A stretch of 18,001 nt of DNA from Defluviicoccus sp. (GTDB lineage Bacteria > Pseudomonadota > Alphaproteobacteria > MPNO01). How positions within the stretch are numbered: the first letter of the stretch is position 1; the number at the start of each line of letters is the position of its first letter. The stretch covers positions 1 to 18,001 of the forward strand of contig JAPPHW010000020.1 of assembly GCA_028820945.1 (NCBI GenBank). The letters run 5' to 3'. Below, one piece after another: positions 1,053 to 17,456 of the stretch. The position numbers were made by a program, and so were the translations under genes. The notes below the pieces were generated by a model that saw only the letters and a list, made by a program, of their open reading frames with translations, did no database searches and was not told where the DNA came from.

Positions 1053-2093
1053 TCAACCGCCCTCCAGCGCGATGCGGTGGCTGTCGAGCAGGCCCGGCGC
1101 GCGGGCGGGGTCGCCGCGGCCCCAGCCGCATTCGGTGGCGATGCCGAACTCGGAGACCGTCCGCGATGCGGCTGCGATGCGGCGCCGGTCGCCCTCGCGG
1201 TCGTCGTGGTGGATGACGCCGAGATAGAGCTCGCATTCCTCCGGCAGACGGAGACCGGCGAGCGGCGCGTAATAGGCCGTGTCGTCGCGGTGTTTCGGCG
1301 CCGGCATGTGGACGAATTGCAAGGAGCGCGTGAGCCTGGCGAGGATGCCGTGGATCATCTCGACCGCGTTGGCGAGGTCGGCCGGCATCACCACATGCTC
1401 GTCGTTGGGCGTGCCGTAGCAGAGGTGGTAGCCGAGCTCGGCCGGCTCCGGCACCGCGTCGCCGAGCCTCGCCAGCATGCCGGTTATGTCCTCCTTGTAG
1501 CTCTCCGGCCGGTTCGGGAAATAGCCCTCCCAGGCCAGCACCTCCTGGCACACGTCCCACTGGATCGCGAGGTCGCCGTGCGGGATCGCGGCGCGGATCT
1601 TCGCGAGATCGGCCTTGAAGGCACGCTCGTAGGCGGCGAAGAAATCGGGCCGCGAGGCGGGCGAGACGAACCAGTAGCCGACCGCCATCGGCGTCGGCAG
1701 GCAGACCTGGAAGCGAACCCCGTCGCGCAACTTTCCCGCTTCCCGCATCCCGACGAACCGGGCGTAGGAGGCGATGGCTTCCGGCGCGTAGCCGGGATCG
1801 AAGTCGACCGTCGCCGGATCGATGCCGGGCTTGAAGCGGAACAGCTCCCATTCGCGGATCAGCTTGCCGTCCCACTGGTGGATCCGCGCCTTGTCCTCGT
1901 CCGCCGCGACCTCCATCGCCGGGTGGTTCGCCACCTTCGCGCGCTGCCAGAAGATCCACCGCGCCCGCTCCCCGGTCTCGCCGTCCGGTATTCGCTTCAG
2001 ATGCCCGCCGAGGCGAGCGACGGTCTCGGCAAACGCCGTGTCGGCGTCGGGATAGGGCAGGCTGCCGACGAGATGGGCGCAGGTGAGCGGCAT
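1053..2093 (-). CDS. MetE-like (cobalamin-independent methionine synthase superfamily) zinc enzyme
   Basis: A 346-residue single-barrel protein of the UROD/MetE-like fold. Known members move methyl or alkyl groups to thiols using zinc (MetE, MtaA, epoxyalkane:CoM transferase). The zinc motif His-x-Cys-Xn-Cys is visible as H223-L-C225 (in GYHLCYG) and C322 (in ATECGWG). The MetE glutamate ligand is not obvious. QWDVCQE (178-184) resembles the MetE QIDEP strand. The N-terminus has LVGSLPYP and DGETGE. It is half the size of full MetE and lacks its N-terminal folate-binding duplicate, so it is unlikely to be housekeeping methionine synthase. The start at 2093 has AAGGA about 7 nt upstream. The open frame continues further upstream, but only across the hydrolase gene. 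Last gene of the minus-strand run; the substrate is unknown. Confidence 0.75.
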   Translation of the reverse strand: MPLTCAHLVGSLPYPDADTAFAETVARLGGHLKRIPDGETGERARWIFWQRAKVANHPAMEVAADEDKARIHQWDGKLIREWELFRFKPGIDPATVDFDPGYAPEAIASYARFVGMREAGKLRDGVRFQVCLPTPMAVGYWFVSPASRPDFFAAYERAFKADLAKIRAAIPHGDLAIQWDVCQEVLAWEGYFPNRPESYKEDITGMLARLGDAVPEPAELGYHLCYGTPNDEHVVMPADLANAVEMIHGILARLTRSLQFVHMPAPKHRDDTAYYAPLAGLRLPEECELYLGVIHHDDREGDRRRIAAASRTVSEFGIATECGWGRGDPARAPGLLDSHRIALEGG

Positions 2094-2132
2094 GGCAGGA
2101 TCCTTCGAAGGGGAAATGAAGCGATTTTCGAC

Positions 2133-2151
2133 AACCGGGGCCTGCCCGGTT
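2133..2151 (-). repeat. Stem-loop in the hydrolase/MetE-like gap
   Basis: Perfect 7-bp arms AACCGGG and CCCGGTT around a 5-nt loop, in the 65-bp gap between hydrolase stop and MetE-like start. No U-tract follows on the minus strand, so it is probably an mRNA processing or stability element, not a true terminator. A separate 10-bp palindrome, CCTTCGAAGG (2102-2111), covers the Shine-Dalgarno region of the MetE-like gene. Confidence 0.5.
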
Positions 2152-2158
2152 CCGGCGC

Positions 2159-2950
2159 TCAGACGCCGGCCAGGAATTCCGTTATCGCCTCCGCCACCTC
2201 GTCGGGGCGATCGAACTCGGCCGTATGGCCAGCGCCGGGGACGGTCGCGACGGTAGCGGGTCCGGCGATCGCGTCGGCGATGCGCGCGGCGTAGGATTCG
2301 GGCATCACCCGGTCGTCCCCGCCCCGGATCAGCAGCGTCGGGCAGGCGATGCGCTCGAGCCGGGTCGCGAGCCTGGTGTCGCCGAGCGGCCACAGCAGCC
2401 GCGCCGCGGCGTTGTTGGCGCGCTGCATCATGATGTCCCATTCCATCGTCTCGTCCGCGTCGTCGGTGCCCGACGCGGTCCAGGCGTCGAAATCGTCCGG
2501 ACGGTTGGTCAGCAGCGGCGAGCGTTCGGCGGGGCGCTGGGCGAACACGTCGGCTATCGGCTCGGCCTCGTCGAACAGGCCGAACGGCGCGATCAGCACC
2601 AGACGTCCCACCGAATCGGGCCAGACAGCGGCAATGTCGGCGGCGAGCGCCCCGCCGGAAGATGCGCCGACCAGCGCCCCGCCCTCGGCATCCGCGGCGC
2701 GATGGGCGTCGCGCGCCGCCAGCAGCCAATCGACATGCTCGTCCAGCATATCGGCGGAATGCCCGCCCGGCGCGCCGGGGAGCGACGGCGCGGCGACGCG
2801 GTGGGATTCGGCGAGCCGGTCGAGCACCGGCAGCCAGCGGGGCAGTCCGGGGAGACCCGCGAACCAGCAGAGTCCGGGCCCCTCCCCCTTTTCCCAGATC
2901 CGCAATTCTCCGCCGGCGACCGTGGCGCTGCGTTCGCTGTAACCGGTCAT
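2159..2950 (-). CDS. Alpha/beta hydrolase
   Basis: A 263-residue alpha/beta-hydrolase-fold protein without a signal peptide, so cytoplasmic. The triad can be read directly: nucleophile S97 in the elbow GASSG (95-99), acid D213 in RGGDDRVMP, and H242 in PGAGHTAEF. The region after FAGLPGLPRWLPVLDRL resembles esterases, C-C hydrolases and RutD-like amide hydrolases. The start at 2950 forms an ATGA overlap with the stop of the upstream luciferase-like gene (2947-2950), so the two are almost certainly translationally coupled and functionally paired. A hydrolase coupled to a luciferase-like monooxygenase suggests it acts on the oxidation product, such as an ester, lactone or amide; this is inference. 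Longer in-frame starts fall inside the upstream gene and are not favoured. Confidence 0.85.
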   Translation of the reverse strand: MTGYSERSATVAGGELRIWEKGEGPGLCWFAGLPGLPRWLPVLDRLAESHRVAAPSLPGAPGGHSADMLDEHVDWLLAARDAHRAADAEGGALVGASSGGALAADIAAVWPDSVGRLVLIAPFGLFDEAEPIADVFAQRPAERSPLLTNRPDDFDAWTASGTDDADETMEWDIMMQRANNAAARLLWPLGDTRLATRLERIACPTLLIRGGDDRVMPESYAARIADAIAGPATVATVPGAGHTAEFDRPDEVAEAITEFLAGV

Positions 2951-4194
2951 ACGGCGACCGGCTCCGGCACCGCGCGGCTCTGGCTCGGCATCGGGTTCGG
3001 CCACCAATGGTCTTCCCACTCGTCGTCGAACAGATCGGCAATCTGGGGCAGCACCTTCTCGGCGAAGAGCTGGGTGTTATGGCGGGTGAGGTCCTTCGAC
3101 ATGTTGCCGAAATGGAGCAGCAGCATCAGGTGGCCGACATTGAGGTCGATCGCCACCTCGCGGAGCTGATCGGCGACCTCGTCGGGGCTGCCGATGATGA
3201 CATGGCCCTGTTCGAGAACGTTATCCGTGTTCGCCTGGAACGGGCGCGCGGCGATCGCCTGGTCGGCTGCCTTCGTGACCTGCGAGGTGAGGCGCGCGCG
3301 CACCGTCGCCTCCGAGATATAGCCCGGCGGGCGCGCGAACTTGGGGTCGAGGTGGAGGCAGCGATCGTAGAAATAGCTCGCCGGCTCGGCGTAGAGGTCG
3401 ACCGCCTCGGCCCGGCTCTCGGCGACGCCGACCGCCTGCAGGAAGCCCGCGTGATAGGGGTTGGGCTCGGCCCCCATCGCCTTCATCTCCTCCCAGAAGC
3501 CCTTCATCACGCCGAGCCCCGCCTTGTAGCCCCAGTAGGACAGGTAGGCGTAGACGAAGTCGTTCTCGTAGCACATTCGCCAGGTCTCGACCGAGCCGGA
3601 GCCCGGCACCCAGACCGGCGGGCGCGGCTTCTGGATCGGCCGGGGCCACGGGTTGACGTAGCGCATCCGGTTGAAGCGACCGTTATAGGGGAACGGCTTT
3701 TCCTCCCGCCAGGCGCGGACGATCAGGTCGATCGCCTCGTAGTAGCGAGGCCTGAGCAGGCTCGGGTTCTGGCTGTAGGCGTAGCACGTATCCATCGGCG
3801 TGCCGACCGGGAAGCCCGCGATCAGCCGCCCGCCCGACATGCAGTCGATCATCGCGAACTCCTCGGCGACCCGGACCGGCGGGTCGTAGAGCGCGACCGA
3901 GCTTCCCATCACGCAGATCGCCGAGTCGCGCGTACGCCTGGCAAGCGTGGAGGCGATCAGGTTGGGCGACGGCATCAGCCCGTAGCCGTTGGAGTGGTGC
4001 TCGTTGACGCAGATCCCGTCGAACCCCTGCTCGGCGGCGAATTCGAGCTCGTCCATGAAGTCGTTGTACATGACGTGCGCGCGCTCGGGATCGAACAGCG
4101 CCGGGTCGATCTCGACCCAGACGCCCGGATGCCGCTCCTTGAAGTCGTCGGGGAGCTCGGTATAGGGCATCAGGTGGAACCACAGCACCTTCAT
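2947..4194 (-). CDS. LLM-class (bacterial luciferase-like) flavin-dependent oxidoreductase
   Basis: A 415-residue TIM-barrel protein of the luciferase-like monooxygenase family, which uses FMNH2 (or F420) to oxidise small molecules. Diagnostic parts are MKVLWFHLMPY at the N-terminus, ICVNEHHSNGYGLMPSPNL (61-79, the conserved EHH region), and DCMSGGRLIAGFPVG (117-131, the SGGRLxxGxG-like flavin phosphate region). Length is within the range for two-component monooxygenases. No flavin reductase gene lies in the window, so reduced flavin would have to come from elsewhere. The ATG at 4194 has a purine-rich GGAAAGGCGG upstream. It overlaps the hydrolase start by 4 nt. The substrate is unknown; the protein is only distantly similar to the second LLM protein at 5671-6738. 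Confidence 0.85.
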   Translation of the reverse strand: MKVLWFHLMPYTELPDDFKERHPGVWVEIDPALFDPERAHVMYNDFMDELEFAAEQGFDGICVNEHHSNGYGLMPSPNLIASTLARRTRDSAICVMGSSVALYDPPVRVAEEFAMIDCMSGGRLIAGFPVGTPMDTCYAYSQNPSLLRPRYYEAIDLIVRAWREEKPFPYNGRFNRMRYVNPWPRPIQKPRPPVWVPGSGSVETWRMCYENDFVYAYLSYWGYKAGLGVMKGFWEEMKAMGAEPNPYHAGFLQAVGVAESRAEAVDLYAEPASYFYDRCLHLDPKFARPPGYISEATVRARLTSQVTKAADQAIAARPFQANTDNVLEQGHVIIGSPDEVADQLREVAIDLNVGHLMLLLHFGNMSKDLTRHNTQLFAEKVLPQIADLFDDEWEDHWWPNPMPSQSRAVPEPVAV

Positions 4195-4328
4195 CGCGGG
4201 GTCCGCCTTTCCGATAGGGTAGATCCAGGTATCGGTCGCCAGGCAGGATAGCGCCCACCGCTCACCGCTGCCAGCCGGTCGCCGGCGAACGGCAACCGCT
4301 CAGGGGTGCGAACGCAGTCCCATCTGTG
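4195..4328. other. 134-bp gap upstream of the luciferase-like gene
   Basis: Noncoding on both strands as far as I can tell. It holds a weak stem-loop, GCCGG-TCG-CCGGC (4274-4286), and no convincing -35/-10 pair. It may be the 3' end of the coiled-coil gene's transcript plus a leader for the luciferase-like gene, or just a spacer within one operon. Confidence 0.4.
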
Positions 4329-4640
4329 TCAGGGAACCAGCTTGAGCGCGGCGAACAGCAAACCGCCGACACCGAACACGGCGGCATACATGCGCCGTTC
4401 GCCTGACTGCATCCGGTCCACAAGCTCCACCCTGAGCGAGGAGATGTCCGCCTTGAGCTCCGCCTTGACCGCCGTCAGATCGCTCTTCACCACCGCCACA
4501 TCCGTCTTGGTCGCCAGATGCTCGAGGTCGGCCTCCGCGGCCGAGCGGACTGCTTCGGCGACGGCTTCCGCCTGCTCGCGCTTCATGCCCGCCTTTTCCA
4601 TGCGGCGGGCGGCGGTCAGGGTGTCGAAAGCGGCGGTCAT
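4329..4640 (-). CDS. CCDC90/DUF1640-like coiled-coil protein with C-terminal membrane anchor
   Basis: A 103-residue protein resembling the CCDC90/DUF1640 group common in alphaproteobacteria. MTAAFDTLTAARRMEKAGMK begins the conserved 'AxxLxxAGxxxxQAEA' helix. Heptad-like coiled coil follows at about 35-78 (EHLATKTDVAVVKSDLTAVK). A short hydrophobic C-terminus (MYAAVFGVGGLLFAALKLV, ~84-102) is a single membrane span. The mitochondrial relatives are MCUR1/CCDC90B; bacterial function is not established. It sits 47 bp after DUF3891 on the same strand. It has no obvious link to the metabolic neighbours and may be an independent insertion in the operon. Confidence 0.75.
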   Translation of the reverse strand: MTAAFDTLTAARRMEKAGMKREQAEAVAEAVRSAAEADLEHLATKTDVAVVKSDLTAVKAELKADISSLRVELVDRMQSGERRMYAAVFGVGGLLFAALKLVP

Positions 4641-4652
4641 CGTTCGAGCCTA

Positions 4653-4682
4653 GCCAGGACCGGATGGTTATACAATCCTGGC
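4653..4682. repeat. Inverted repeat in the DUF3891/coiled-coil gap
   Basis: Perfect 7-bp arms GCCAGGA (4653-4659) and TCCTGGC (4676-4682) around a 16-nt centre that is AT-richer than its surroundings. On the minus strand the centre contains TTGTATAAC. It occupies most of the 47-bp gap. It could be an mRNA stem-loop, or an operator over an internal promoter for the coiled-coil gene (TATAAC as -10); I cannot decide which. Confidence 0.4.
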
Positions 4683-4687
4683 GTGCA

Positions 4688-5530
4688 TTACCCTTTCACG
4701 AGGGTGTAGGTCTGCATCTCGGTGGGCAGGCCGGCAAGCGCGGCGGCGAGGTCTTCCGGCGCCCCGTCCTCGGCGTAGGCCGCGAGGTAGCGCCCCGAGC
4801 ACGCCGTCTCAAGCCGGTCGCCCGCGAAGGGGAACGGATCGAGCGCGTAGACGCCCCCGCCCTTCGGCGTCACCGTCACCTCGGCGTCGGTCTCGGCGTC
4901 CCTCGGCACGCAGGCGAAGGTCTCGACGCCGCGGTCGGTCTCGTGGCGCAGGTTGAAATAGAGCGCCAGCGTGTCGAAGAACTGGAGCTGCTTGTAGTTC
5001 TGGACGATATGAGCTTCCTCGACCCACGCGGCGGTCTCCGGGTCGGCGGCGAGCGTCCCCCTGATCCTCTCCTGGCGCGCGATCTCGCCCGACAGCATCC
5101 GGTCGACTTCCTCGCGGTCGGCGGGCCCGACCGGGATCGAGGTCGACCCGCCGGGGCGCACGCGGAACTCGGAGAAGCCGTAGCGCGCGTTGTAGAGCCC
5201 CCAGGAATGCATCGAGGAAATCAGCCCGCAATAGAGGTGGCGGGCCTCGTTGACGTCGGCCGAGCGCCTGCCGGTATCGGTCCCGCCCGGCACCGGCGCG
5301 TTGCCGACGCCGCAGGGAAGTCCGGTCCGGTCGTCGAGCACAGCGGCGGCGTCGAATTCGTCCCAGCCGTAGTCGTGGTGGCTCACCACATAGACCATTT
5401 CTTCATGGGGCTCGCAGCGTTCGAACTCGTCGTTGCCGAAGGCGCGCGCGAACTGCCCGCAAAGCGCGTTGTGCTCGCGCATCGAGCAGAGGAAATGAGG
5501 CTCGCCCGGCGGGGCGGTCTGGATCATCAT
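4688..5530 (-). CDS. DUF3891 family protein
   Basis: A 280-residue cytoplasmic protein of the uncharacterised DUF3891 family. The N-terminal part (CSMREHNALCGQFARAFGND) corresponds to the family's 'Q..H..L.GQLA..WG' start. VVSHHDYGWDEFDAA (48-62) is the conserved HHDxGWxxxD block. YCGLISSMHSWGLYNARYG is the conserved 'GLLVSxH...LY' strand. The paired histidines and aspartates suggest an HD-like metal site, which is inference. No reaction is known to me for the family. Two ATGs in tandem (5530 and 5527) follow a good GGGAGG; 5530 is taken. It is divergent from the second LLM gene across 140 bp and may head the operon ending at 1053, giving it a plausible role in the same pathway. Confidence 0.75.
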   Translation of the reverse strand: MMIQTAPPGEPHFLCSMREHNALCGQFARAFGNDEFERCEPHEEMVYVVSHHDYGWDEFDAAAVLDDRTGLPCGVGNAPVPGGTDTGRRSADVNEARHLYCGLISSMHSWGLYNARYGFSEFRVRPGGSTSIPVGPADREEVDRMLSGEIARQERIRGTLAADPETAAWVEEAHIVQNYKQLQFFDTLALYFNLRHETDRGVETFACVPRDAETDAEVTVTPKGGGVYALDPFPFAGDRLETACSGRYLAAYAEDGAPEDLAAALAGLPTEMQTYTLVKG

Positions 5531-5670
5531 CGCCTGGTCCCTCCCGCGGAATGCGATGGAGTCCGTTCATTTAAGCGGAAACCGCGCGCGGCGGATACCG
5601 AAAGGCGCGGCTTGTTGGCGCCTGTGCGTTTGGGCACGGTTGGAACCCGGTGCCGGAGAGGAGAAGCGCG
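5531..5670. promoter_or_regulatory. Divergent promoter region between DUF3891 and LLM genes
   Basis: A 140-bp gap that must hold the start signals for both directions. The Shine-Dalgarno sequences are clear: GGGAGG for the minus gene and GGAGAGGAG for the plus gene. An inverted repeat, AGGCGC-N9-GCGCCT (5603-5623), lies in the middle and could be a regulator site. TTAAAT, on the minus strand near 5570, is a possible -10. No full consensus promoter is convincing. Confidence 0.45.
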
Positions 5671-6738
5671 ATGGATCTGGGACTGAGTCTGCCGACGAAA
5701 GCCAATTCCTGGGAGATCTGCAAACGGGCGGAGGAGCTGGGCTATTCGTACGCCTGGTTCTACGACACCGTGTTGCTCAACGCGGAGGTCTTCGCGGCGA
5801 TGGGCGCGGCGGCGGTGAAGACCAGCAGGATCAAGCTCTGCGCCGGCGTCATCATCCCCTCCAACCGGATCGCTCCGGTGACGGCGTCGGGGCTGGCGAC
5901 GCTCAATGCGCTCGCGCCGGGGCGTATCGTGTTCGGCGTCTCGACCGGGTTCACCGGGCGCCGGACGCTCGGGCTCAAGCCAGTCACCCTGGCGCGCATG
6001 GAGAAATACATCGGGGTCGTCCACGGGCTGCTCGCCGGCGAGACCGTCGAGTGGGACGAGGAGGGCGCGGTTCGCAAGATCCGGTTGATCGACCCCGGGC
6101 GCGGGCTGGTCAACGTCGAGGACCCGATCCCGACCGTCCTGTCCGCGTTCGGTCCGAAGGCGCGGCGGCTGACGGCTAGGCTCGGCGCCGGCTGGATCGG
6201 ACCCGCATGCTGGCCGGAGAAGGAGGAGGCCGATCTGGAGGAATACCGCGCCGCGTTCGGGGAATTCGGCCACGACATGGGAGACCATTACGCGATCCTG
6301 GGCGCCGGCGGGTGCGTGCTCGACGAGGGCGAGCCGGCCGACGGTCCCCGCGCCATGGCGCATGCGGGGCCGTTCGCCGCGATCGCCTTCCACAACCTCG
6401 CGGAGGAGGAAGAGTTCGGCTCGCTGTTCGGCTCGTCGGACCACTTCCCCTTCCAGGAGGAGCTCGCCGCCTACAGGAAGGTGTACGAGGCCTACGAGCC
6501 CGCGGACGCGCGCTATCTCAGCAACCATCGCGGCCATCTGATGTATGTCCGCCCGGACGAGAAGCACCTGAATGAGCGGGTGATACGGGGCCTCTCCCTG
6601 ACCGGAACTAAGGCCGAGCTGGTCGAGCGTCTTCGCGGCATCCGGGACGCCGGCTATCGCCAGGTCATGCACCACACCATGCCCGGCCACGAGAACGAGA
6701 TGCTGGAACGCTGGGCCGACGTGATGGCGGCGGTTTAG
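5671..6738 (+). CDS. LLM-class oxidoreductase, possibly F420-dependent (Mer-like)
   Basis: A 355-residue luciferase-like family protein whose start MDLGLSLPTKANSWEICKRAEELGYSYAWFYDT resembles methylene-tetrahydromethanopterin reductase and other F420-dependent members more than the FMN monooxygenase at 2947-4194. LAPGRIVFGVSTG (81-93) is the conserved phosphate-binding segment. Whether the cofactor is FMN or F420 cannot be decided here; no F420 biosynthesis gene is in view. The ATG at 671 of this kilobase (5671) is chosen over an upstream GTG at 5650 because GGAGAGGAG sits immediately before it and the family N-terminus begins there. Its stop overlaps the convergent livF-like gene by 4 bp. 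The C-terminal GYRQVMHHTMPGHENEMLERWADVM is typical of the family. Confidence 0.82.
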   Translation: MDLGLSLPTKANSWEICKRAEELGYSYAWFYDTVLLNAEVFAAMGAAAVKTSRIKLCAGVIIPSNRIAPVTASGLATLNALAPGRIVFGVSTGFTGRRTLGLKPVTLARMEKYIGVVHGLLAGETVEWDEEGAVRKIRLIDPGRGLVNVEDPIPTVLSAFGPKARRLTARLGAGWIGPACWPEKEEADLEEYRAAFGEFGHDMGDHYAILGAGGCVLDEGEPADGPRAMAHAGPFAAIAFHNLAEEEEFGSLFGSSDHFPFQEELAAYRKVYEAYEPADARYLSNHRGHLMYVRPDEKHLNERVIRGLSLTGTKAELVERLRGIRDAGYRQVMHHTMPGHENEMLERWADVMAAV

Positions 6739-7454
6739 GGCGCGGACGCGGCTCCGAGATAGGCGGCCTGGACTGAGGGGTCGTTGGCGAGGTTCGCCGC
6801 GCTGTCCTCGCCGGTGATGCAACCGTTCTCCAGCAGATAGCCGCGGTCGGCGATGGCGAGGCTCTGCTTGGCGTTCTGTTCCACCAGCAGAATGCCGACC
6901 TGCGTCTCGCGAACCCTGGCCAGGGTCCTGAACAGCTCGGTGCAGAGCATGGGCGAAAGGCCCAGCGAGGGCTCGTCCAGCATCAGCATGGAGGGCGCCG
7001 ACATCATCGCGGTGCCGATCGCCACCATCTGCTGCTGGCCGCCGCTCAGGGTGCGCGCGACCTGCCGGCGCCGCTGGGCGAGCACGGGGAACAGATCGAG
7101 CACGCGCTCCAGGTTTTCGGATTCCGAAGCCCGCGCCCGCCTGGGATACGCGCCGAGGGTAAGGTTCTCGATCACCGTCAGGTCGTCGAAGAGCCCCCGC
7201 CCCTCGGGCACCAGCGCGATGCCGCGCTCCACGATCTCGTGCGGCGGGAGCGCGCCGATCTGGTTTCCGTCGAGGGCGACGCCGCCGCCCGCGTCCTTCG
7301 CCACCAGTCCGGCGACGGCCTTCAGAAACGTGCTCTTGCCGGCGCCGTTGGCGCCCAGCATGGCGACGATTTCCCCCGCCGCCACGGTGACGGAGACGTC
7401 TTCCAGCGCCCGGTGCTTGCCATAGGCGACCGAGATATGGCGCGCCTCAAACAT
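6735..7454 (-). CDS. livF: Branched-chain-type ABC transporter ATP-binding protein, LivF-like
   Basis: A 239-residue ATPase, one of the two nucleotide-binding subunits of a HAAT-family importer. It has Walker A GANGAGKST (34-42), signature LSGGQQQM (136-143), Walker B LMLDEPSLGL (D160, E161), and LivF-type ILLVEQN after it. The length is normal for LivF (about 235). It begins inside the end of livG (8-nt overlap), so it is the distal gene of the transporter operon. The name reflects family and operon position; such systems carry many substrates besides leucine, including amides, urea and aromatic acids. The 3' end overlaps the convergent LLM gene by 4 bp, leaving no room for a separate terminator. 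Confidence 0.93.
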   Translation of the reverse strand: MFEARHISVAYGKHRALEDVSVTVAAGEIVAMLGANGAGKSTFLKAVAGLVAKDAGGGVALDGNQIGALPPHEIVERGIALVPEGRGLFDDLTVIENLTLGAYPRRARASESENLERVLDLFPVLAQRRRQVARTLSGGQQQMVAIGTAMMSAPSMLMLDEPSLGLSPMLCTELFRTLARVRETQVGILLVEQNAKQSLAIADRGYLLENGCITGEDSAANLANDPSVQAAYLGAASAP

Positions 7455-8187
7455 GGGCGTCTCCCAGATAGGCGGCGATCACGGCCTCGTCGGCCAGAAC
7501 TTCCCGCGGCGTCCCGTCGGCGATCATGGCGCCCGAGTTCATCACCACGCAGCGGTCGCACAGGCTTCGGATCGCGTCCATCACGTGCTCGACGATGACG
7601 ATGGTGCGGCCCTCGTTCCGGAGATCCTCGACCAGCTCGATGCCGGTCTGAAGCTCCGTCGGGTTGAGCCCCGCAAGCCATTCGTCGAGCAGCAACAGCC
7701 TGGGATCGGCGGCGAGCGCGCGGGCGAGCTCCACCCGTTTCTGGTCGATATAGGTGAGCGCGCCGACCGGCTCGTCCTCCTTGCCGGCCAGCCCAACGCG
7801 CGCCAGGTTGTGCCGCGCGTGGTCGCGAAGCTCGGCCCCCCAGCGCCGGACATGGCCGAACACCCCGCCGGCCTCGACGTTTTCCAGCGCCGACATCGAC
7901 TCCAGCATCCGCACCAGCTGAAAGGTCCGGGCGACGCCCCGGCGGGCGATGGCGTGGGCGGATTCGCCGGCGACGTTCTCGCCGAACAGCACGATCTCGC
8001 CGCCGCTCGCCCTGAGCGCGCCCGAGATCAGGTTGATCATCGTCGTCTTGCCGGACCCGTTGGGGCCGATCAACCCGAGCACCTCGTGCTCCGCGAGTTC
8101 GAAGCTCATGTTGTCGACCGCGACCAGGCCACCGAAGGTCCTGGTCACGCCGCGCACGCTGAGCGCCGTATCGGGCTCCGCCGCCAT
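7447..8187 (-). CDS. livG: Branched-chain-type ABC transporter ATP-binding protein, LivG-like
   Basis: A 246-residue ATPase subunit. Walker A is GPNGSGKTT (41-49), Walker B LLLLDEWLAGLNPTE (from 164), and the LivG-type VIVEHVMDAI follows. The ABC signature reads LTYIDQKR (144-151) in place of the usual L-S/P-Y-G-Q-Q/D-R-R, so the central glycine is an isoleucine. It otherwise looks intact. It starts 1 nt after the livM stop and overlaps livF by 8 nt, so the subunits are translated as a block. It pairs with LivF to power the LivH/LivM channel at the inner membrane. Confidence 0.92.
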   Translation of the reverse strand: MAAEPDTALSVRGVTRTFGGLVAVDNMSFELAEHEVLGLIGPNGSGKTTMINLISGALRASGGEIVLFGENVAGESAHAIARRGVARTFQLVRMLESMSALENVEAGGVFGHVRRWGAELRDHARHNLARVGLAGKEDEPVGALTYIDQKRVELARALAADPRLLLLDEWLAGLNPTELQTGIELVEDLRNEGRTIVIVEHVMDAIRSLCDRCVVMNSGAMIADGTPREVLADEAVIAAYLGDAHV

Positions 8188-8188
8188 G

Positions 8189-9118
8189 TCAGCTCGCCAG
8201 CAGGGGCCGGCGGCGGATCAGGTTCTCGATCAGGCCAGCGAAGCCGTTGGGGACGATATAGACGATCAGAAGGAAGCAGAGTCCCAGCATCAGCGCGGTC
8301 TGGTTGGGGAAAGTCGCCGTCACCACGTCCCACAGGAAGGTAAACGGGATTACGCCGAGCAGCGGGCCCCAGAGCCGGTGCACGCCGCCCAGCAGCGCCA
8401 TGATGACGACCAGGAAGGACAGCATGGGGCTGAAGGCGATCACCGGCTCCACATAGGTCCAGCGCGGCGCCAGGATCGCGCCGGTCAGCGCCGCAACGGC
8501 GCCCGATATCACGAACAGCGCGATCTTCGCGTGCGCGGTGTTGATCCCGCTATGGGCGGCGACCACCTCGTCGCCCCCGATGATGCGGAGCGCGAAGCCG
8601 AGCCGCGAGCGGCCGATGCGCCAGCTCGCCAGGTAGACCGCCGCGGCGAGAGCGAGCAGCTGCCAGTAGATCATCGGCTCGTCGATACTTGTCAGCACCA
8701 CGAGCCCGCTCGACGTCCCCATGGTGGTCTGCACCCAGGTGACGAGCTGGCGGACCATCTCGGCGAGGCCGAGCGTGAAGATCACGAAATAGACGCCCGA
8801 CAGGCGGAGCGTCGCCAGCCCGATCAGCGCCGCCAGCACCGCGCCCACGATGGTCGCCATGACCAGCAGGACGGGATAGGGAAAGACCTCGATCAGCGCC
8901 GCCACCGTGTACATGCCGAGCCCGAAAAAAGCCGCCGTGGCGAGCGAGATGTAATGGGTCGGACCCGAGAAAAGCGTCCAGGACGTGGTGAGCACCGCAT
9001 ACATCACCACCGTCACCGCCAGTGACAGGCCGTAGCCCTCGCTCAGCATCGGCACGAACGCGGCAGCCAGGAAGATCGCCGCCCCGACCGCCAGCCCCCG
9101 TCTCTCTCCCGCCGTCAC
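8189..9118 (-). CDS. livM: Branched-chain-type ABC transporter permease, LivM-like
   Basis: A 309-residue, very hydrophobic inner-membrane permease with roughly eight to ten membrane segments, for example AIFLAAAFVPMLSEG near the start and MLGLCFLLIVYIVPNGF at the end. YISLATAAFFGLGMY (~56-70) is the conserved LivM 'SLGHAAFFGIGAY' motif. The cytoplasmic loop with LGFALRIIGGDEVVAAHSGIN is the ATPase-coupling EAA-like region. Translation starts at a GTG whose GTGA overlaps the livH stop (9115-9118). This is the second half of the channel, paired with LivH. Confidence 0.92.
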   Translation of the reverse strand: MTAGERRGLAVGAAIFLAAAFVPMLSEGYGLSLAVTVVMYAVLTTSWTLFSGPTHYISLATAAFFGLGMYTVAALIEVFPYPVLLVMATIVGAVLAALIGLATLRLSGVYFVIFTLGLAEMVRQLVTWVQTTMGTSSGLVVLTSIDEPMIYWQLLALAAAVYLASWRIGRSRLGFALRIIGGDEVVAAHSGINTAHAKIALFVISGAVAALTGAILAPRWTYVEPVIAFSPMLSFLVVIMALLGGVHRLWGPLLGVIPFTFLWDVVTATFPNQTALMLGLCFLLIVYIVPNGFAGLIENLIRRRPLLAS

Positions 9119-9981
9119 GCCGCCCGCCTGCCGAAGATGCCCTGGGGCCGGAACAGCAGGACCAGGATGAACACGACATAGGCGGCCGCCAGGGTGAGGC
9201 CGGGATCGATCAGGCTGGCCACGGCGGTTTCGGTGAGGCCGAGGACGAAGGCGGCGACGATCGAGCCCCTTATGTCCTTGAGCCCGCCCATGATGACGAT
9301 GACCAGCGCCTTCATGGTGAAGATGATGCCGATCGAGGCGTCGAATACGAGGAACGTGGACAGGAGCCCGCCGCCCGCGGCCGTGATCGCGCCGCCGAGG
9401 CCGAAGGCCAGCGCGGAAGCGCCCGCGACGTCGATTCCCACCCGGCGGGAAGCGTCGGGCGAAATCGAGACGGCGCGGAGCGTCAGCCCCATTCGCGTCC
9501 GGTGCAGCCAGACATAGAGGCCGACGCAGAACGCGGCGGCATAGAGAAACGCCACCAGCCGGTTCTGCTCGTAGGGCTGGCCCAGGATGTCGAAGGGCTT
9601 TTCGAGGAAGGAATAGCTGAAGAACTCGCCGCCGAAGAGGGCCAGCATGACGCCGACTAGGATGAAGCTGAGACCGAAGGTGGCGAGGATGCTGTCGACC
9701 TCCAGATGGCCCTCGCTCTTCGAGCGCCGGACCAGCGGCAGCATCAGGTAGCGGTAGATCGCCCAGTTGACGGCGAACGCCACCGGCGCATAGCCGATAA
9801 CGGTGATCAGCGGACTGACCTGGGAGCCGGTGAAGAACCAGAACGCGCCGAACGCGCCCGCAACCAGGATCTCGCCGTTGGCGAGGTTCATGATGCGGGC
9901 GACGCCGTATTGCAGCTGCAGCCCCACCGCCATCAGGGCGTAGGCGCCGCCCAGCAGAACACCGATGATCAGGATGTCCAT
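9115..9981 (-). CDS. livH: Branched-chain-type ABC transporter permease, LivH-like
   Basis: A 288-residue multi-spanning permease. The N-terminus ILIIGVLLGGAYALMAVGL and VARIMNLANGEILVAGAF match the LivH pattern (GLxLIYGVxRxxNxAHGExxMxGAY). LRAVSISPDASRRVGID is the conserved cytoplasmic coupling loop. Length is typical (about 290). No good Shine-Dalgarno precedes the ATG at 9981. A strong stem-loop lies 27-58 nt upstream, in the gap after the binding-protein gene, so its translation may be limited relative to livJ. It overlaps livM by 4 nt. Confidence 0.92.
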   Translation of the reverse strand: MDILIIGVLLGGAYALMAVGLQLQYGVARIMNLANGEILVAGAFGAFWFFTGSQVSPLITVIGYAPVAFAVNWAIYRYLMLPLVRRSKSEGHLEVDSILATFGLSFILVGVMLALFGGEFFSYSFLEKPFDILGQPYEQNRLVAFLYAAAFCVGLYVWLHRTRMGLTLRAVSISPDASRRVGIDVAGASALAFGLGGAITAAGGGLLSTFLVFDASIGIIFTMKALVIVIMGGLKDIRGSIVAAFVLGLTETAVASLIDPGLTLAAAYVVFILVLLFRPQGIFGRRAA

Positions 9982-10008
9982 GCCGTCGACTACACGTTCG
10001 GAGGAGAG

Positions 10009-10039
10009 GCCCGGCGCGGGCTGTGCCCCCGCGCCGGGC
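10009..10039 (-). repeat. Perfect 12-bp stem-loop between livJ-like and livH-like genes
   Basis: GCCCGGCGCGGG (10009-10020) and its exact reverse complement (10028-10039) flank a 7-nt loop in the 67-bp gap. All but two of its 12 pairs are G-C. There is no U-tract on the minus strand. Such hairpins after a binding-protein gene usually protect the upstream mRNA from 3' exonucleases or partly terminate it, giving more binding protein than permease; this role is inferred. Confidence 0.7.
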
Positions 10040-10048
10040 TATCGCGGC

Positions 10049-11251
10049 CTACTTCCAGGCCGGCTTTTCCTTGACCGGCTTGGCGCCCGGAATGTTCAGC
10101 GAGTTGACGCCGTGGAACTTCCCGCCCTGCCACTGGCCGACCGTCCAGAACTTGTTCGAGATCCCGGTCGAGAGGTCCATCTCGCCGACCACGGTCTTGA
10201 ACTTGTTCTTCTTGATGTATTCGGTGACCTTCTTGCGGTCGAGCTCGCCGACCCCCTCGATCGCCTGTTCGAGCACCTGGAAGGTCGCGTAGACCACCGG
10301 GCTCGCCCAGTAGTCCGGCGATTTGCCGGTGACCTTCTTGTGGGCCTCGAAATAGGCCTTCATCTCCGGCGAATCGACGTAGACCCCGCCGCCGCCCAGG
10401 ATACCCTCGGCCGCCGCGCCGAACTTGCCCACAAACGCCGGGAAGGCGGTGGCGACGGCGGTGTAGAACGCCTTGGTGTCGAGACCCTGGACCTTGGCCT
10501 GCGCGGTCAGCCCGAACGTGTCGGGCGGGTAGGACCAGGCGACGAAGGCATCGGGGTTCGCCGCCTTGGCGCCCCGGATCACCGGCGACAGGTCCTGCGT
10601 GCCGAGCGGATAGGACTTGTCGTAGACGATCTCGAATCCGGCCTTCTTGAAGACCGGGCGCGCGGCGTTGGCAAGCTCGATGCCGAAAGCGTCGGCGACG
10701 TTCACCATGGCGACGCGGGTACCGATCTTGCCTTCGTCGCGCATCTTCTTGAGCACGTCGGCGACCCCTTCCGAAAACGCGCTGGTCGAGCCCAGCGTGA
10801 AGAAGATCCCCGGGTACCGCTTGACCAGCTCCTCCTGCTTGTCGGTGATCGAGGTCGACGTGACCATCGGATAGCCGAACTTGGCGAAGATCGCCGCGGT
10901 GGCGAGATTGAAGCCGGTCCCGTAGGGCGGCAGGATGAAATCGGCCTTGTCCTGGGTGGCGAGCCGCGTGACGTTCTTGATCGCCTCGCCCGGGGTGGTG
11001 CGGTCGTCGTACTCGATCAGCTCGATCTTGCGCTGGCCGTCCTTCAGCTTCAGGCCGCCGCGCCCGTTGACCGTCTCGACCCAGAGCTTGACGTTGGGCC
11101 AGTGCGTGATGGAGGCGCCGACCGCCAGCGGCCCGGTCTTGGGCGCCGAGGCGCCGATCTTCACGGTTTGCTGCGCCTGCGCGACGCCGACCGACAGCGC
11201 GCCGGCGACCGTCCAGGCGAGCGCCGCTGTCAGATAAGATCGCATTTTCAT
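10049..11251 (-). CDS. Periplasmic substrate-binding protein of a branched-chain-type ABC transporter
   Basis: A 400-residue type I periplasmic binding protein (Peripla_BP_6/LivJ type). Residues 1-26 are a signal peptide: MKMR, a hydrophobic core, and a VAQA cleavage site before QQTVKIGAS. The mature protein opens with TVKIGASAPKTGPLAVG, the family start. Later come GRGGLKLKDGQRKIELIEYDD, the lobe-1 hallmark, and VAMVNVADAFGIELA. It captures the solute for LivHMGF. The sequence resembles the broader amide/aromatic-acid binding group, so the ligand is not necessarily an amino acid. The start has GGGAG 7 nt upstream; a second ATG two codons on is less favoured. First gene of the transporter set; 168 bp separates it from the NMT1-like gene. 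Confidence 0.92.
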   Translation of the reverse strand: MKMRSYLTAALAWTVAGALSVGVAQAQQTVKIGASAPKTGPLAVGASITHWPNVKLWVETVNGRGGLKLKDGQRKIELIEYDDRTTPGEAIKNVTRLATQDKADFILPPYGTGFNLATAAIFAKFGYPMVTSTSITDKQEELVKRYPGIFFTLGSTSAFSEGVADVLKKMRDEGKIGTRVAMVNVADAFGIELANAARPVFKKAGFEIVYDKSYPLGTQDLSPVIRGAKAANPDAFVAWSYPPDTFGLTAQAKVQGLDTKAFYTAVATAFPAFVGKFGAAAEGILGGGGVYVDSPEMKAYFEAHKKVTGKSPDYWASPVVYATFQVLEQAIEGVGELDRKKVTEYIKKNKFKTVVGEMDLSTGISNKFWTVGQWQGGKFHGVNSLNIPGAKPVKEKPAWK

Positions 11252-11419
11252 GAACGTCTCCCGTCTCTTCGATCCGTGGAGGACCGTCGCCGCCGTCCGC
11301 TCCCGTCGGACGCGGGGTTACGGTTCGCGCGGCCGGCCTTCTCCATCCGGTGAGCCGGCGCGGATGCTAGCAGACGGGTTTGGGCGACTCCACCGGCAAG
11401 GCCGCGACGAGACTCCGCC
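11252..11419. other. 168-bp gap upstream of the binding-protein gene
   Basis: The longest gap in the window; I see no gene in it. It contains two inverted repeats: CGTCCG-N7-CGGACG (11294-11312) and CATCCG-N11-CGGATG (11344-11366). It may combine the 3' end of the NMT1-like transcript with a promoter or leader for livJHMGF. No convincing -35/-10 pair is visible on the minus strand. Confidence 0.4.
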
Positions 11420-12307
11420 CTACTCCGCCGGCGGCGGGGCGCAGGCGCGGTCGTAGGGGAAGCGCTCCCGGATCAGCCCGTTATAGGCGAAGATGTCGAG
11501 GGTCGCCTCGTACGCCTCGCGGGTGATCTCGACGTGCGGCGTCCAGCAGCCGAGCTCCTGGTAGCTCGCGATGCAGCGTTCGAGGACGGCGAGATCGATA
11601 TCCGGGAAATAGGCCGCCTCGGCGAGGGCGATCTCCGCCGCCGGGGTTCGGTTCAGCCAGAGGCGCGCCTTGCGGTAGGCGCGGGCGAACGCGCGCGCCA
11701 TCCCGGTTTCCAGCCAATCCGGGAGGGCGCACAGGCTGGAGAAACCGCAGCGCCCGATCTGCCGGCCGACCTCGGCCACCACATGACCGACCCCGTCGGC
11801 CTCGAGCTGCTGGGGGAACGGCCCCTGCTGCTGCACGTAGGCGCCCTCGCCGGCGCGGAAGGCGGCGTCGACCTCGGCGGCGTTGCCGGGATGGATCGCC
11901 TCGATCCGGCCGTAGTCGATGCCCGCCTTGTGGCAGGCGTATTTGAACATGGCGAGCGGCTGGCCGCCGCCGAACAGGACGACCGGGGCGCCTTCCAGCT
12001 TGCGCCAGTGGAAATCGGGATCGGGATCGCGCGCGGTGAGGAAGAACCCGTCCATCTCGTTGATCTGGGCGAAATGGACCGCGCCCGGATCCTCGCCCCG
12101 CGACAGCGGCCCGAACGCCTGGCTCAACGCCGACTGCACCACGTGCGCGGTGCCGTCCTTGAGCGCGGCGATGGCCGACACCCCGGGCGGCGCAACCGAC
12201 CACTCGACGTCCAGCCCCTCCTCGTCCAGGAACCCGCCCGCCATCGTTGCGATCAGCGGCGAATAGAACGCGGAGAACATGGTGAACTGGATGTCTATCC
12301 GGGTCAT
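11420..12307 (-). CDS. NMT1/THI5-like protein without signal peptide
   Basis: A 295-residue type II binding-protein fold of the NMT1/THI5 family (relatives: SsuA, TauA, ThiY and yeast THI5). Signs are IDIQFTMFSAFYSPLIATMAGGF at the start (substrate-binding and 'GFFxxEGL' region), then EEGLDVEW and the hinge APVVLFGGGQPLAMFKYACH. The protein starts straight at the first beta strand; there is no signal peptide or lipobox, and the codons upstream of the ATG at 12307 encode none. It is therefore predicted cytoplasmic, unusual for a transport component. No matching SsuB/SsuC-type permease is nearby. It could be an enzyme, a ligand sensor, or a protein exported by an unseen route. AAGGGA lies about 9 nt upstream. 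It is divergent from the DapA-family gene. Confidence 0.75.
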   Translation of the reverse strand: MTRIDIQFTMFSAFYSPLIATMAGGFLDEEGLDVEWSVAPPGVSAIAALKDGTAHVVQSALSQAFGPLSRGEDPGAVHFAQINEMDGFFLTARDPDPDFHWRKLEGAPVVLFGGGQPLAMFKYACHKAGIDYGRIEAIHPGNAAEVDAAFRAGEGAYVQQQGPFPQQLEADGVGHVVAEVGRQIGRCGFSSLCALPDWLETGMARAFARAYRKARLWLNRTPAAEIALAEAAYFPDIDLAVLERCIASYQELGCWTPHVEITREAYEATLDIFAYNGLIRERFPYDRACAPPPAE

Positions 12308-12446: not shown

Positions 12447-13379
12447 ATGGTTGCGAAGCACGGATTCTGGTCCCGCGTTTTTACCTTCGTTCCGACACCG
12501 CTCGAACTCGACGGCGAAGCCATCGACGAGGACGGCCTCCGCCGGGTGCTCGATCACCAGATCGAGAACCGCGTGGACGGGGTCTGCGTGTTCGGCTCGA
12601 CCGGCGGCAACGGCTCGTTCTCGGAAGACGAGATGAAGCGCGGCATCGAGGTCGCGGCGCGGCACGTCGACGGGCGCATCGCTGTAATCGCGGGCACCGG
12701 GGCGCGCACCACGTCCGCCTGCACGCGGCTGTCGCGGCACGCGGAGGCGGTGGGCTGCGACGGGGTGATGATCCTCCCCATGACATACTGGCCGCTGACG
12801 CTGGACGAGGTGCGGGCGCACTACGAGCGCGTCGCCGATGCGATCAGGCTGCCGATCTGCGTCTACAACAACCCGTGGACCACCGGCATCGACATGCCGC
12901 CGGCGTTTCTGGCGGAGCTCGCGCGACACGAGAACATGCGCTGCGTCAAGGAAAGCACCGGCGATCTGACACGGATCAGCCAAATCCGCGCGCTGACCGG
13001 CGACGACGTGGCGATCGTCGCGGGCTGGGAGTCGACGAGCCTCCAGGCGTTCAGCGCCGGCGCGACCGGCTGGGCGCCGGTGGTGACCAATTTCCTGCCG
13101 GCCGAGGCGATGGCGTTCTTCCGCGCCGCGGTCTACGACGACGATGTGGCCAAGGCGCGCGAAATCTGGGACCGGCTGTTCCCGATCTGCGACATGATCT
13201 GCACTAAGTCGCATATCCGGGTGGGCCATACCGGGCTCGACATCCTGGGCCGCCCGGTCGGCCCGCCGCGTCGGCCGCTCGGAATGCTCGGCGACGAAGA
13301 CCGCGAGGCGCTGCGCGCGGCCCTCGAAGCCGCCGGCGCGATGGGGGCGGAGGCCGGGGCGAGCATCGCGGCGCAGTAG
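12447..13379 (+). CDS. DapA/NanA-family (class I aldolase) lyase or synthase, not a true DapA
   Basis: A 310-residue TIM barrel of the dihydrodipicolinate synthase family. These enzymes form a Schiff base with pyruvate or a keto acid on a lysine. The catalytic pair is visible: Y140 in ICVYNNP and K168 in RCVKEST. The upstream motif reads FGSTGGNGSF in place of GTTGE. At the position of the DHDPS arginine that binds aspartate-semialdehyde (YNVPSRTG) this protein has Thr145 (YNNPWTTG). It is therefore unlikely to make lysine and more probably cleaves or forms a keto-acid aldol product in catabolism. The ATG at 12447 follows GAGAGG. It converges on the PanE-like gene across 11 bp. Confidence 0.85.
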   Translation: MVAKHGFWSRVFTFVPTPLELDGEAIDEDGLRRVLDHQIENRVDGVCVFGSTGGNGSFSEDEMKRGIEVAARHVDGRIAVIAGTGARTTSACTRLSRHAEAVGCDGVMILPMTYWPLTLDEVRAHYERVADAIRLPICVYNNPWTTGIDMPPAFLAELARHENMRCVKESTGDLTRISQIRALTGDDVAIVAGWESTSLQAFSAGATGWAPVVTNFLPAEAMAFFRAAVYDDDVAKAREIWDRLFPICDMICTKSHIRVGHTGLDILGRPVGPPRRPLGMLGDEDREALRAALEAAGAMGAEAGASIAAQ

Positions 13380-13390
13380 GGCGGGCGCGC

Positions 13391-14431
13391 TCACCCCCGC
13401 GCGTATCGTTGGGCGAGGTCGTTCAGCAAAGCGAGGTTCCCGGCGCCGGGTTCGAGCTCGCCGCGCTCGATGCGCCGCGCGACCTCGGACACCGCCTCGC
13501 AGGCCGGCGCGGCGATTCCCGCCTCGCGCGCGGTCCGGGCGACGTGGCCGTTGAGGTTATCGAGCTCGCTTTTCCGCCCCTTCTCCCAGTCCTGGAGAAT
13601 GACACCCTTGGTGTTGGGCAGGATGAAGCCCTCCATCAGGCGGTCGAGCATGGTTTCGACGAGGCGGTTCGAATCCCGCACGTCCCGTTCCGTCATCCCG
13701 AGGATGGGCCGACGACGGTGTCCGATCGCGGCGCCGACGTCGAGTGCCTCCTGGCCCGCGCGGAGCATGAACTCGCGCATCCCGGGCACGGATTCCGCGT
13801 CCACGATCGATTTGCCCAGGCAGGCCGTGGTCGCCAGCGTGGTGCAGTTGCTGACCAGCTTCATCCACTTGGCCGCGAGGATGTCGTCGACGATCTCGCA
13901 GGCGCCGGCATGCGCCAGGAGCTCCGCCACCTCGCCCTCGCGTCCCTTCGTCGCCGGATGGAAGCTGCCCACCGCGAACCAGGACCGGGAGGGCGGCGAG
14001 TGGCGCTCCACGGTGCCGGGCGCGAACAGCCCGGACGAGATCTCGATCACGCAGCCGAGCGTGCGCTCGGGCCCCACCACCTCGGCGACGGTTTCGGCCG
14101 TCATGCCGTTCTGGACCGCGACCAGCAGCCCGTCGTCCTTCAACCAGGGTTCGATGAGCTGGCTCGACCAGTGGGCGTCGTAAGCCTTGGTCACCACCAG
14201 CACGATGTCGAAGGGCTCCTTCAGCGTGCAGACCTCGCAGAGATGGAGCGCGTTCACCTGCTGGACGACGGTTTCCTCCGGCATCGAGATCGTGGCGCCG
14301 TTCCTGCGCATCACCTCGACATGGGCGGGCCACTGGTCGATCAGCGTCACGTCGTGGCCGGCGCGCGCAACGTCGACGCCGATCGAGGTGCCGTTGGCGC
14401 CGCTTCCGACGATTGCGATCTTCCGCGACAT
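13391..14431 (-). CDS. Ketopantoate reductase (PanE/ApbA) family NAD(P)H-dependent reductase
   Basis: A 346-residue 2-dehydropantoate-2-reductase family protein. The N-terminal Rossmann motif is IVGSGANG (7-14). The expected catalytic lysine is K191 in AAKWMKLVSN, and the C-terminal helical domain has SELDNLNG with the conserved Glu289. VVTKAYD (79-85) and VAVQNGM match the family. It is about 40 residues longer than E. coli PanE, with extra sequence around 235-270. That fits the many catabolic paralogues reducing other alpha-keto acids, so pantothenate synthesis is not assumed. Start at 14431 with GGGAGG 8-9 nt upstream. It is divergent from the DUF1194 gene. It could act on the product of the aldolase whose gene faces it. 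Confidence 0.83.
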   Translation of the reverse strand: MSRKIAIVGSGANGTSIGVDVARAGHDVTLIDQWPAHVEVMRRNGATISMPEETVVQQVNALHLCEVCTLKEPFDIVLVVTKAYDAHWSSQLIEPWLKDDGLLVAVQNGMTAETVAEVVGPERTLGCVIEISSGLFAPGTVERHSPPSRSWFAVGSFHPATKGREGEVAELLAHAGACEIVDDILAAKWMKLVSNCTTLATTACLGKSIVDAESVPGMREFMLRAGQEALDVGAAIGHRRRPILGMTERDVRDSNRLVETMLDRLMEGFILPNTKGVILQDWEKGRKSELDNLNGHVARTAREAGIAAPACEAVSEVARRIERGELEPGAGNLALLNDLAQRYARG

Positions 14432-15287: not shown

Positions 15288-16040
15288 GTGCAGCCCCCCG
15301 CCCTTCCCGAGCCGCGCGCGCACTGGGCGCTGTTTCTCGATTTCGACGGCAGCATCGTCGAAATCGCGCCGACGCCGGACTCGATCGTCGTGCCGGAAAC
15401 CCTGCCGCCGCTGCTGACTGCCCTGCGCGGGGCGCTGGGCGGCGCGGTCGCGATCGTCACGGGCCGGCCCATCGCGCAAATCGACGCCTACCTCGGCGCC
15501 GCCGTCCCGGCCGTCGCGGGACTGCACGGGCTGGAGCGGCGCGGCGCGGACGGCGCGATCGTCCGTCCGCCGCCGAACGACGACCTGCGGCGTGCCCGGG
15601 CGCCGCTGGAAGCGTTCGCCGCAGCGCATCCCGGGATCCTCTTCGAGGACAAGGAATATTCCCTCGCCCTACATTACCGTCTCGCCCCCTCCCTAGAGGA
15701 CGCCTGCAGGGATGTCGTGGACTCCGTGCTCGGGGACGGCGCGGAGGGCTGGGAAATCCTCGAAGGCAAGATGGTCTTCGAAATCAGGCCGCGCGGTCTC
15801 GCCAAGGGCGCCGCGATCGAAGCGTTCATGGGCGAAGCGCCATTCGTCGGACGGATACCCGTGTTCTGCGGCGACGACATCACGGACGAAGACGGTTTCG
15901 CGGTCGTCAACGCGCGGGGAGGCGTGAGCGTCCGCGTCGGCGAGCGCGCGGCCACCCGGGCGGCGGTCCGGGTCGATACGGTCGCGGATTTGCTGGACTG
16001 GCTGGTGCGGGTAGCGGGTTCGGCGCGGCTATCCGCCTGA
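15288..16040 (+). CDS. otsB: Trehalose-6-phosphate phosphatase
   Basis: A 250-residue HAD-superfamily phosphatase that removes phosphate from trehalose-6-phosphate, the second step of the OtsAB trehalose pathway. HAD motif I is LFLDFDGS (nucleophile D18, acid D20). TGRP is motif II. KGAAIEAFMG carries the motif III lysine. GDDITDEDGF, near residue 200, is the motif IV metal site, very close to the OtsB consensus GDDxTDE. Translation starts at GTG 15288; the preceding TAGGAGCGAGG means its Shine-Dalgarno overlaps the DUF1194 stop, so it is probably co-translated with it. It is convergent with otsA, leaving a 7-bp gap, in contrast to the usual otsBA operon. Confidence 0.92.
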   Translation: MQPPALPEPRAHWALFLDFDGSIVEIAPTPDSIVVPETLPPLLTALRGALGGAVAIVTGRPIAQIDAYLGAAVPAVAGLHGLERRGADGAIVRPPPNDDLRRARAPLEAFAAAHPGILFEDKEYSLALHYRLAPSLEDACRDVVDSVLGDGAEGWEILEGKMVFEIRPRGLAKGAAIEAFMGEAPFVGRIPVFCGDDITDEDGFAVVNARGGVSVRVGERAATRAAVRVDTVADLLDWLVRVAGSARLSA

Positions 16041-16051
16041 ACCCGCGCTAC
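16011..16051. terminator. Possible bidirectional hairpin at the otsB/otsA junction
   Basis: GCGGGTTC (16014-16021) pairs perfectly with GAACCCGC (16039-16046). Inside it GCGG-CTAT-CCGC (16025-16036) forms a second stacked stem. The structure contains the otsB stop and ends at the otsA stop. Only a short TTT follows on the plus strand, so it is a terminator-like element without a proper U-tract. Confidence 0.45.
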
Positions 16052-17430: not shown

Positions 17431-17456
17431 GCGGTCCGAGGCAGCTGGCCAGTCAT
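17427..17456 (-). CDS. Possible 9-codon leader peptide overlapping the otsA start
   Basis: An ATG at 17456 opens a frame encoding MTGQLPRTA and stopping at a TGA that shares ATGA with the otsA start codon. OtsA lacks a clear Shine-Dalgarno of its own, so termination-reinitiation is conceivable. AAGGGA lies about 14 nt upstream of this ATG, rather far. This short frame could easily be chance. Confidence 0.2.
   Translation of the reverse strand: MTGQLPRTA

Follow-up and report, generated by a model that had tools for sequence, protein, structure and literature searches.

Modules around a luciferase-like monooxygenase–hydrolase pair in an uncultured bacterium related to Defluviicoccus

We examined an 18,001-nucleotide stretch of contig JAPPHW010000020.1 from Defluviicoccus sp. 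(the window hereafter), in which genes for a Liv-type importer, two luciferase-like monooxygenases (LLM1 and LLM2), an alpha/beta hydrolase (ABH), a MetE-like protein, a DUF3891 protein and an NMT1-like protein had been described in an earlier note as a single uptake-and-oxidation island. All of the genes named there are present. We propose, with an overall confidence of about 0.7, that the locus is a recent patchwork of modules and not one pathway; its modular character, taken by itself, is highly likely. A clade-level core of DUF3891, CCDC90-like, LLM1 and ABH genes would have been joined on one side by a cassette of LLM2, the Liv importer and its solute-binding protein (SBP), and on the other by an extra MetE-like gene. 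The neighbouring NMT1-like, DHDPS, PanE and trehalose genes would be unrelated to this core.

Gene prediction used a caller based on codon usage, which took the window as its training set and gave 21 genes there; the same caller missed genes at loci of lower G+C content, and L202-L207 and L209 were re-called by open reading frame length. The window was compared with its relatives, mostly draft metagenome-assembled genomes (MAGs) with short contigs, gene by gene and with blastn. The nearest relative found is G001 (loci L001/L114), a MAG titled Defluviicoccus sp. isolate p16x60bins.37, which shares 88.7-96% nucleotide identity with the window across matching pieces. The host, an uncultured bacterium, has relatives among MAGs with the titles Defluviicoccus sp. 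and Rhodospirillaceae, and record titles such as Spongia_Bin9 suggest a marine or sponge setting.

Modular structure of the locus

The boundaries of the modules, their presence or absence in relatives and the coupling of LLM1 to ABH are observed directly. All four genes of the core lie on the minus strand: those for the DUF3891 protein (4688-5530), a CCDC90-like coiled-coil protein (4329-4640) that was missing from the earlier gene list, LLM1 (2947-4194) and ABH (2159-2950), with a 4-nt overlap between the LLM1 stop and the ABH start. This core is retained in 4/4 relatives with a close DUF3891 copy. Genomes G003 and G012 share the order trehalose genes, DUF1194, PanE, DHDPS, NMT1, DUF3891, two to three CCDC90-like genes, LLM1 and ABH, followed by a 341-residue gene (302/341 residues identical; Fic family by Pfam in G003) that is not MetE-like. 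The core of G008 occupies a 6.2-kb contig, behind the end of an acyl-CoA dehydrogenase gene. LLM1, ABH and two CCDC90-like genes sit at a contig end in G011, where a close DUF3891 copy was not found. The window has one CCDC90-like copy, and two or three matches occur at the locus in G001, G003, G008, G011 and G012 (L111, L112, L114, L200, L241).

The second module comprises LLM2 (5671-6738, plus strand) and, all on the minus strand, the LivF-like (6735-7454) and LivG-like (7447-8187) ATPases, the LivM-like (8189-9118) and LivH-like (9115-9981) permeases and the Peripla_BP_6 SBP (10049-11251), whose N-terminus resembles a signal peptide by eye. LLM2 and LivF are convergent, with a tail-to-tail overlap of 4 nt; LivF and LivG overlap by 8 nt and LivM and LivH by 4, with gaps of 1 nt between LivG and LivM and 67 nt between LivH and SBP. 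The whole cassette (5649-11295) is collinear with contig C187 of G012 (L239), at 90.8% identity over 5684 blastn columns (LLM2 94%; LivFGMH and SBP 95%). At the core locus of both G003 (L111) and G012 (L200), about 195 bp between NMT1 and DUF3891 replaces window positions 5589-11415, such that 5588 and 11416-11418 sit 195 bp apart. Since G012 carries the cassette on C187 and lacks it at the core locus, we consider LLM2, Liv and SBP to be one cassette occupying different sites. On C187 it is bordered on one side by genes for a molybdopterin oxidoreductase, an iron-sulfur protein, an amidohydrolase and a family III CoA transferase (Pfam), and on the other by an RNase G/E-like gene (by eye).

The linkage of LLM2 to Liv holds in the window and likewise in G001 and G012, whereas the core of G003 and G012 has neither beside it. 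The contig of G011 that carries LLM2 (88%) ends 451 bp from the gene, with any linkage to Liv beyond view, and LLM2 was not found in the fetched flanks of Liv orthologues in G002, G035, G041 and G139, whose binding proteins are 58-71% identical.

The third element, the gene for the 346-residue MetE-like protein (1053-2093, minus strand), is an extra copy of a gene found, at 77-96% identity, in 10/10 genomes searched. G001 has two copies, one at this locus (96%) and one elsewhere (89%), and the best copies of G003 and G008 are on other contigs. No MetE-like gene directly follows ABH in G003, G008 or G012 (just 1.1 kb is visible before the contig end in G008). The family is large: of the 7998 candidates scored, 6346 reach E <= 0.001. 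Our genome scan kept 80 of 173 confirmed loci, 34 of them with full flanks, and among these 80 an ABH or DUF3891 match or a close LLM1 was seen only at L001 of G001. Five other loci had weak LLM1 matches (22-31%), and ten had Liv-type matches (25-47%), mostly a lone ATPase, with a permease match as well at L026, L048 and L053. A conserved LLM, hydrolase and MetE-like trio was rejected: the combination is seen only in the window and G001.

Scattering of the genes in related genomes, the outcome set in advance as decisive against a single island, is what we find. In addition to the absences above, NMT1 is on another contig in G008 and DHDPS is missing here in G001. Nor is the locus one operon, as its genes occupy both strands and form at least three transcription units. 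The coherent route that had been envisaged survives as an oxidation and hydrolysis pair, and is not supported as one joint pathway.

Predicted roles of the conserved parts

The firmest conserved unit of the locus is LLM1-ABH. At 30 of 34 places an LLM1-like gene has an ABH relative in the same orientation no more than 400 bp away, a count from which LLM1 matches below 28% identity or 60% coverage are excluded and in which several places are orthologous in sister genomes, hence not all independent. Of 20 LLM1 places from one search, 17 were covered, plus one from G005. Where LLM1 is at least 49% identical, ABH is directly downstream at 17/18, L255 being the exception; the LLM1 paralogues (30-39%, n=16) have it upstream in 10 cases and downstream in 3, and lack it in the remaining 3.

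LLM1 has a Bac_luciferase domain (PF00296, 7.7e-32). Ranked by profile score, and not by a tree, the solved structures closest to it are 7bip (1.8e-37), 8cbb, 2i7g, PuwE and LuxA (2.4e-21), followed by 3,6-diketocamphane 1,6-monooxygenase (4uwm, 2.7e-17); the alkanesulfonate monooxygenases are weaker (7jv3 1.1e-14, 1m41 1e-9) and RutA (1e-5) and NtaA (1e-3) weakest. By these scores LLM1 falls in the alkanal and type II Baeyer-Villiger monooxygenase (BVMO) branch, nearer to LuxA and diketocamphane monooxygenase types than to alkanesulfonate, RutA or NtaA enzymes. The ABH of the window has the features of a serine hydrolase, with a GASSG elbow carrying Ser97 and with Asp213 and His242. We tentatively suggest that LLM1 would use reduced flavin mononucleotide and O2 to add a single oxygen atom to a ketone, an aldehyde or an alkene, and that ABH would open the ester or lactone formed; a Baeyer-Villiger plus esterase chemistry has, in our estimate, slightly less than an even chance of being correct. 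LLM1-ABH may be one of many LLM-hydrolase pairs acting on diverse alicyclic or aromatic organic matter. At locus L121 (contig C154 of G001), an LLM1 paralogue and an ABH stand with an isochorismatase-family hydrolase, an NMT1-type binding protein and its accompanying ABC genes, a gene set similar in kind to RutA/RutB/RutD.

LLM2 is nearest to F420-dependent families, resembling Mer-type and other F420 enzymes. Given this likeness, and as CofD of F420 synthesis is above the cut-off in 7/7 genomes searched, LLM2 could use F420.

The DUF3891 protein carries the motif H20..H51H52D53..H108..D186, with H20, H52, D53 and D186 present in 31/31 rows of an alignment that includes two apparently frame-broken sequences (P0139 and P0143). 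The protein looks HD-domain-like, judging from this motif and a weak fold match, and these four residues may bind metal. Compared with the six-ligand motif of the PhnZ/MIOX oxygenases (H..HD..H..H..D), H108 is conserved in 30/31 rows and H98 in 27/31, with just 10 residues between them. DUF3891 is flanked by two thiamine-diphosphate enzymes in 7/17 loci outside the window clade (L202-L207 and L209). We speculate, as an unlikely but testable metalloenzyme hypothesis, that DUF3891 might be an unrecognised HD-superfamily family, possibly of O2-using di-iron enzymes, repeatedly recruited into oxidative catabolic loci and here acting in series with LLM1-ABH. A profile search of PDB sequences with DUF3891 gave zero matches, an NCBIfam search of the MetE-like, NMT1 and DUF3891 proteins gave nothing informative, and no mention of DUF3891 was found in the open-licence literature searched.

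Each of the loci L202-L207 and L209 contains five or six thiamine-diphosphate enzyme genes in a conserved catabolic cluster, to which L203 adds FMN_dh, TauD and Amidohydro_2 genes and a CoxL-like gene (by eye). A UbiD gene adjoins DUF3891 in L201. G001 carries a full AMP-binding ligase gene and a UbiD-family decarboxylase gene just beyond the extent of the window (L001:11849-14611). DUF3891 and LLM1 were rejected as general partners, with an LLM1/ABH match at 0/17 DUF3891 loci outside the window clade (tblastn; G012:C196 set aside).

The predicted model of the MetE-like protein has the MetE catalytic-domain fold. MetE binds zinc through HxC, Glu and Cys; in the MetE-like protein H223-x-C225 and C322 are invariant in 23/23 rows, as is H262, and the counterpart of the Glu was not located. 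In Pfam no MetE family was matched up to E 1, the sole match being Dimer_Tnp_Tn5 at 0.099, and searches of PDB sequences were uninformative, with one match to the profile at E 0.57.

Importer ligand and alternative readings

The importer is a HAAT (Liv-type) system, with two BPD_transp_2 permeases, two ATPases and a Peripla_BP_6 protein in a single gene run. The LivF and LivG types of its ATPases would fit an importer of the usual kind for branched-chain amino acids or urea, whose location is incidental, as would the best PDB sequence matches of the SBP, which are LIV-binding proteins (8e-14). We regard such an importer as rather unlikely. All scores stay below the curated Liv and Urt equivalog cut-offs (LivF 225 of 441 bits, UrtE 195 of 286, PRK15404 84 of 477, with the permeases and LivG likewise under theirs). 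In an alignment of low similarity (54 bits) and uncertain register, Glu226 of Escherichia coli LIVBP, the ammonium ligand, falls on Val266 of the SBP, and Thr102 on Ile135; Val266, Thr112 and Tyr241 are invariant in 10/10 rows (the window and nine relatives; among the ten loci supplied, L254 gave no row at E 1e-20). Weaker matches (1.8e-7 to 2.6e-4) join the SBP to 4f06, 4ey3 and 4dqd, presumably Liv-type binding proteins of Rhodopseudomonas palustris for aromatic acids. Also against an ordinary importer, three annotated Liv orthologues have molybdenum, acyl-CoA or aldehyde enzymes around them: the copy on C187 of G012 adjoins the molybdopterin oxidoreductase named above, that of G041 has an enoyl-CoA hydratase (Pfam) nearby, together with an acyl-CoA ligase and a CoA transferase (both by eye), and that of G035 lies between two aldehyde dehydrogenases (by eye). 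The G002 copy is near AMP-binding ligase relatives, CoxLMS-type genes (Pfam on other cluster members) and, by eye, a short-chain dehydrogenase; flank annotation covers these four, with G139, G126 and G075 left out. The ligand is probably not a standard alpha-amino acid, as the Val aligned with Glu226 suggests. The importer might take in an organic acid or similar compound, for a catabolism that would depend on the genome.

Several observations weigh against the patchwork reading and the chemistry proposed for it. The sharing by G001 of the whole arrangement (Liv with LLM2, the MetE-like gene and the core) may reflect selection for the combination in a sub-lineage. The chance of two LLM genes is 0.18 within 10 kb and 0.06 within 3 kb; on these figures we rejected two nearby LLMs as telling in themselves, and the 1.5 kb between LLM1 and LLM2 is not wholly expected by chance. 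The elbow Ser of ABH is found in 12/17 aligned rows, with Gly in 3 and Cys in 2, so that hydrolysis may not be general. Contigs of G008, G011 and G006 end near relevant genes. Finally, the best match of the LLM1 profile among solved structures, 7bip, is that of RslO1, an enzyme for which epoxide formation has been proposed (PMC8093152).

Two further alternatives follow from these points. A genuine new pathway, recently assembled in the lineage of the window and G001, would run from Liv uptake through oxidation by LLM2 and LLM1 and opening by ABH to an alkyl or thiol transfer by the MetE-like protein. The retention of the arrangement in G001, at the identity given above, and the linkage of LLM2 to Liv in two settings (window/G001 and G012) speak for it; we nonetheless judge it quite improbable. 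G001 is a single close relative, and the gene order in common can be ascribed to shared ancestry; G003, G008 and G012 have the core without adjacent Liv, LLM2 or MetE-like genes; the four Liv orthologues lack LLM2 in their fetched flanks; and the genes are divided between the two strands, in no fewer than three transcription units. It is very unlikely, in our view, that LLM1 is instead an epoxidase whose epoxide is opened by ABH or by the MetE-like protein, in the manner of epoxyalkane:coenzyme M transferase. That transferase is a MetE relative, and the MetE-type fold, HxC and Cys of the MetE-like protein favour the idea, as does the match to RslO1. The alpha/beta-fold epoxide hydrolases have Asp at the elbow; the ABH of the window has Ser, and outside the window G001 alone was found to have a MetE-like gene next to LLM1-ABH. 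We thus retain the patchwork of modules, a case showing that a pathway-like neighbourhood can be a recent patchwork, from which the LLM-hydrolase pair and DUF3891 have been isolated as testable parts.

Flanking genes and relation to known systems

The NMT1/THI5-like gene (11420-12307, minus strand) is probably a neighbour independent of the locus, and was rejected as island-specific: it occurs at E <= 1e-90 in 18/97 relatives. Its product belongs to a widespread and strikingly conserved family of 295 residues without a signal peptide, in which relatives among the 120 matches listed are at least 72% identical. The DHDPS/NanA-superfamily aldolase or lyase gene (12447-13379, plus strand) scores 176.8 bits against DapA TIGR00674, under the 206-bit cut-off; window positions 12396 and 13381 are adjacent in G001 (blastn), and G003 has an extra 3.8 kb between DHDPS and PanE. 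The latter, an ApbA/PanE-family 2-ketoacid reductase gene (13391-14431, minus strand), is followed to the right by DUF1194 and then by trehalose phosphatase and synthase genes and the end of a gene for a GH15 protein with a weak likeness to trehalase models (15288-17999); the trehalose genes stay beside the locus in G001, G003 and G012. The left end of the window holds the end of an AMP-binding ligase, and at 376-1028 a RelE/ParE-family toxin-like gene (TIGR02683, 93.6 bits) overlaps a small partner gene, both of which G001 keeps. An Rfam search of the window returned nothing informative, and a scan for Shine-Dalgarno patterns was uninformative (52 matches against 42 expected, with as many in 14/200 shuffles). 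None of the titles listed from the sponge-symbiont literature deals with the present locus.

The locus adds one more case to a type of catabolic expansion already known, and a new pathway is not shown. It resembles the expansion of FMN/F420-dependent monooxygenases (FMNO) in SAR202, for which up to 114 LLM paralogues per genome are reported in two papers (PMC5395668, PMC6946804) that also predict many type II BVMOs and propose that lactones open spontaneously or through esterases. Genes matching PF00296 at E <= 1e-10 number 50 in G001, 49 in G003, 65 in G005 and 45 in G008, as against 3-12 in each of the six remaining genomes, a SAR202-like expansion in genomes mostly titled as Alphaproteobacteria. 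The likeness rests on counts and not on phylogeny, and the genomes here differ from SAR202 in these titles and in the recurrence of the adjacent hydrolase gene. In the LLM-rich relatives a single genome holds several LLM-hydrolase pairs, a parallel to SAR202. The diketocamphane monooxygenases are type II BVMOs (PMC6352141), and are matched by the LLM1 profile through 4uwm, although LLM1 scores nearer to RslO1, 8cbb, 2i7g, PuwE and LuxA; camphor lactones open spontaneously, and lactone hydrolase activity was not detected there, according to the same source. For the importer, the ABC solute-binding proteins of R. palustris shown to bind aromatic acids (PMC3223731) are a precedent, although the SBP here matches LIV-binding proteins better. 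For DUF3891, the HD-domain oxygenases PhnZ and TmpB (PMC8177086) are among the closest known systems.

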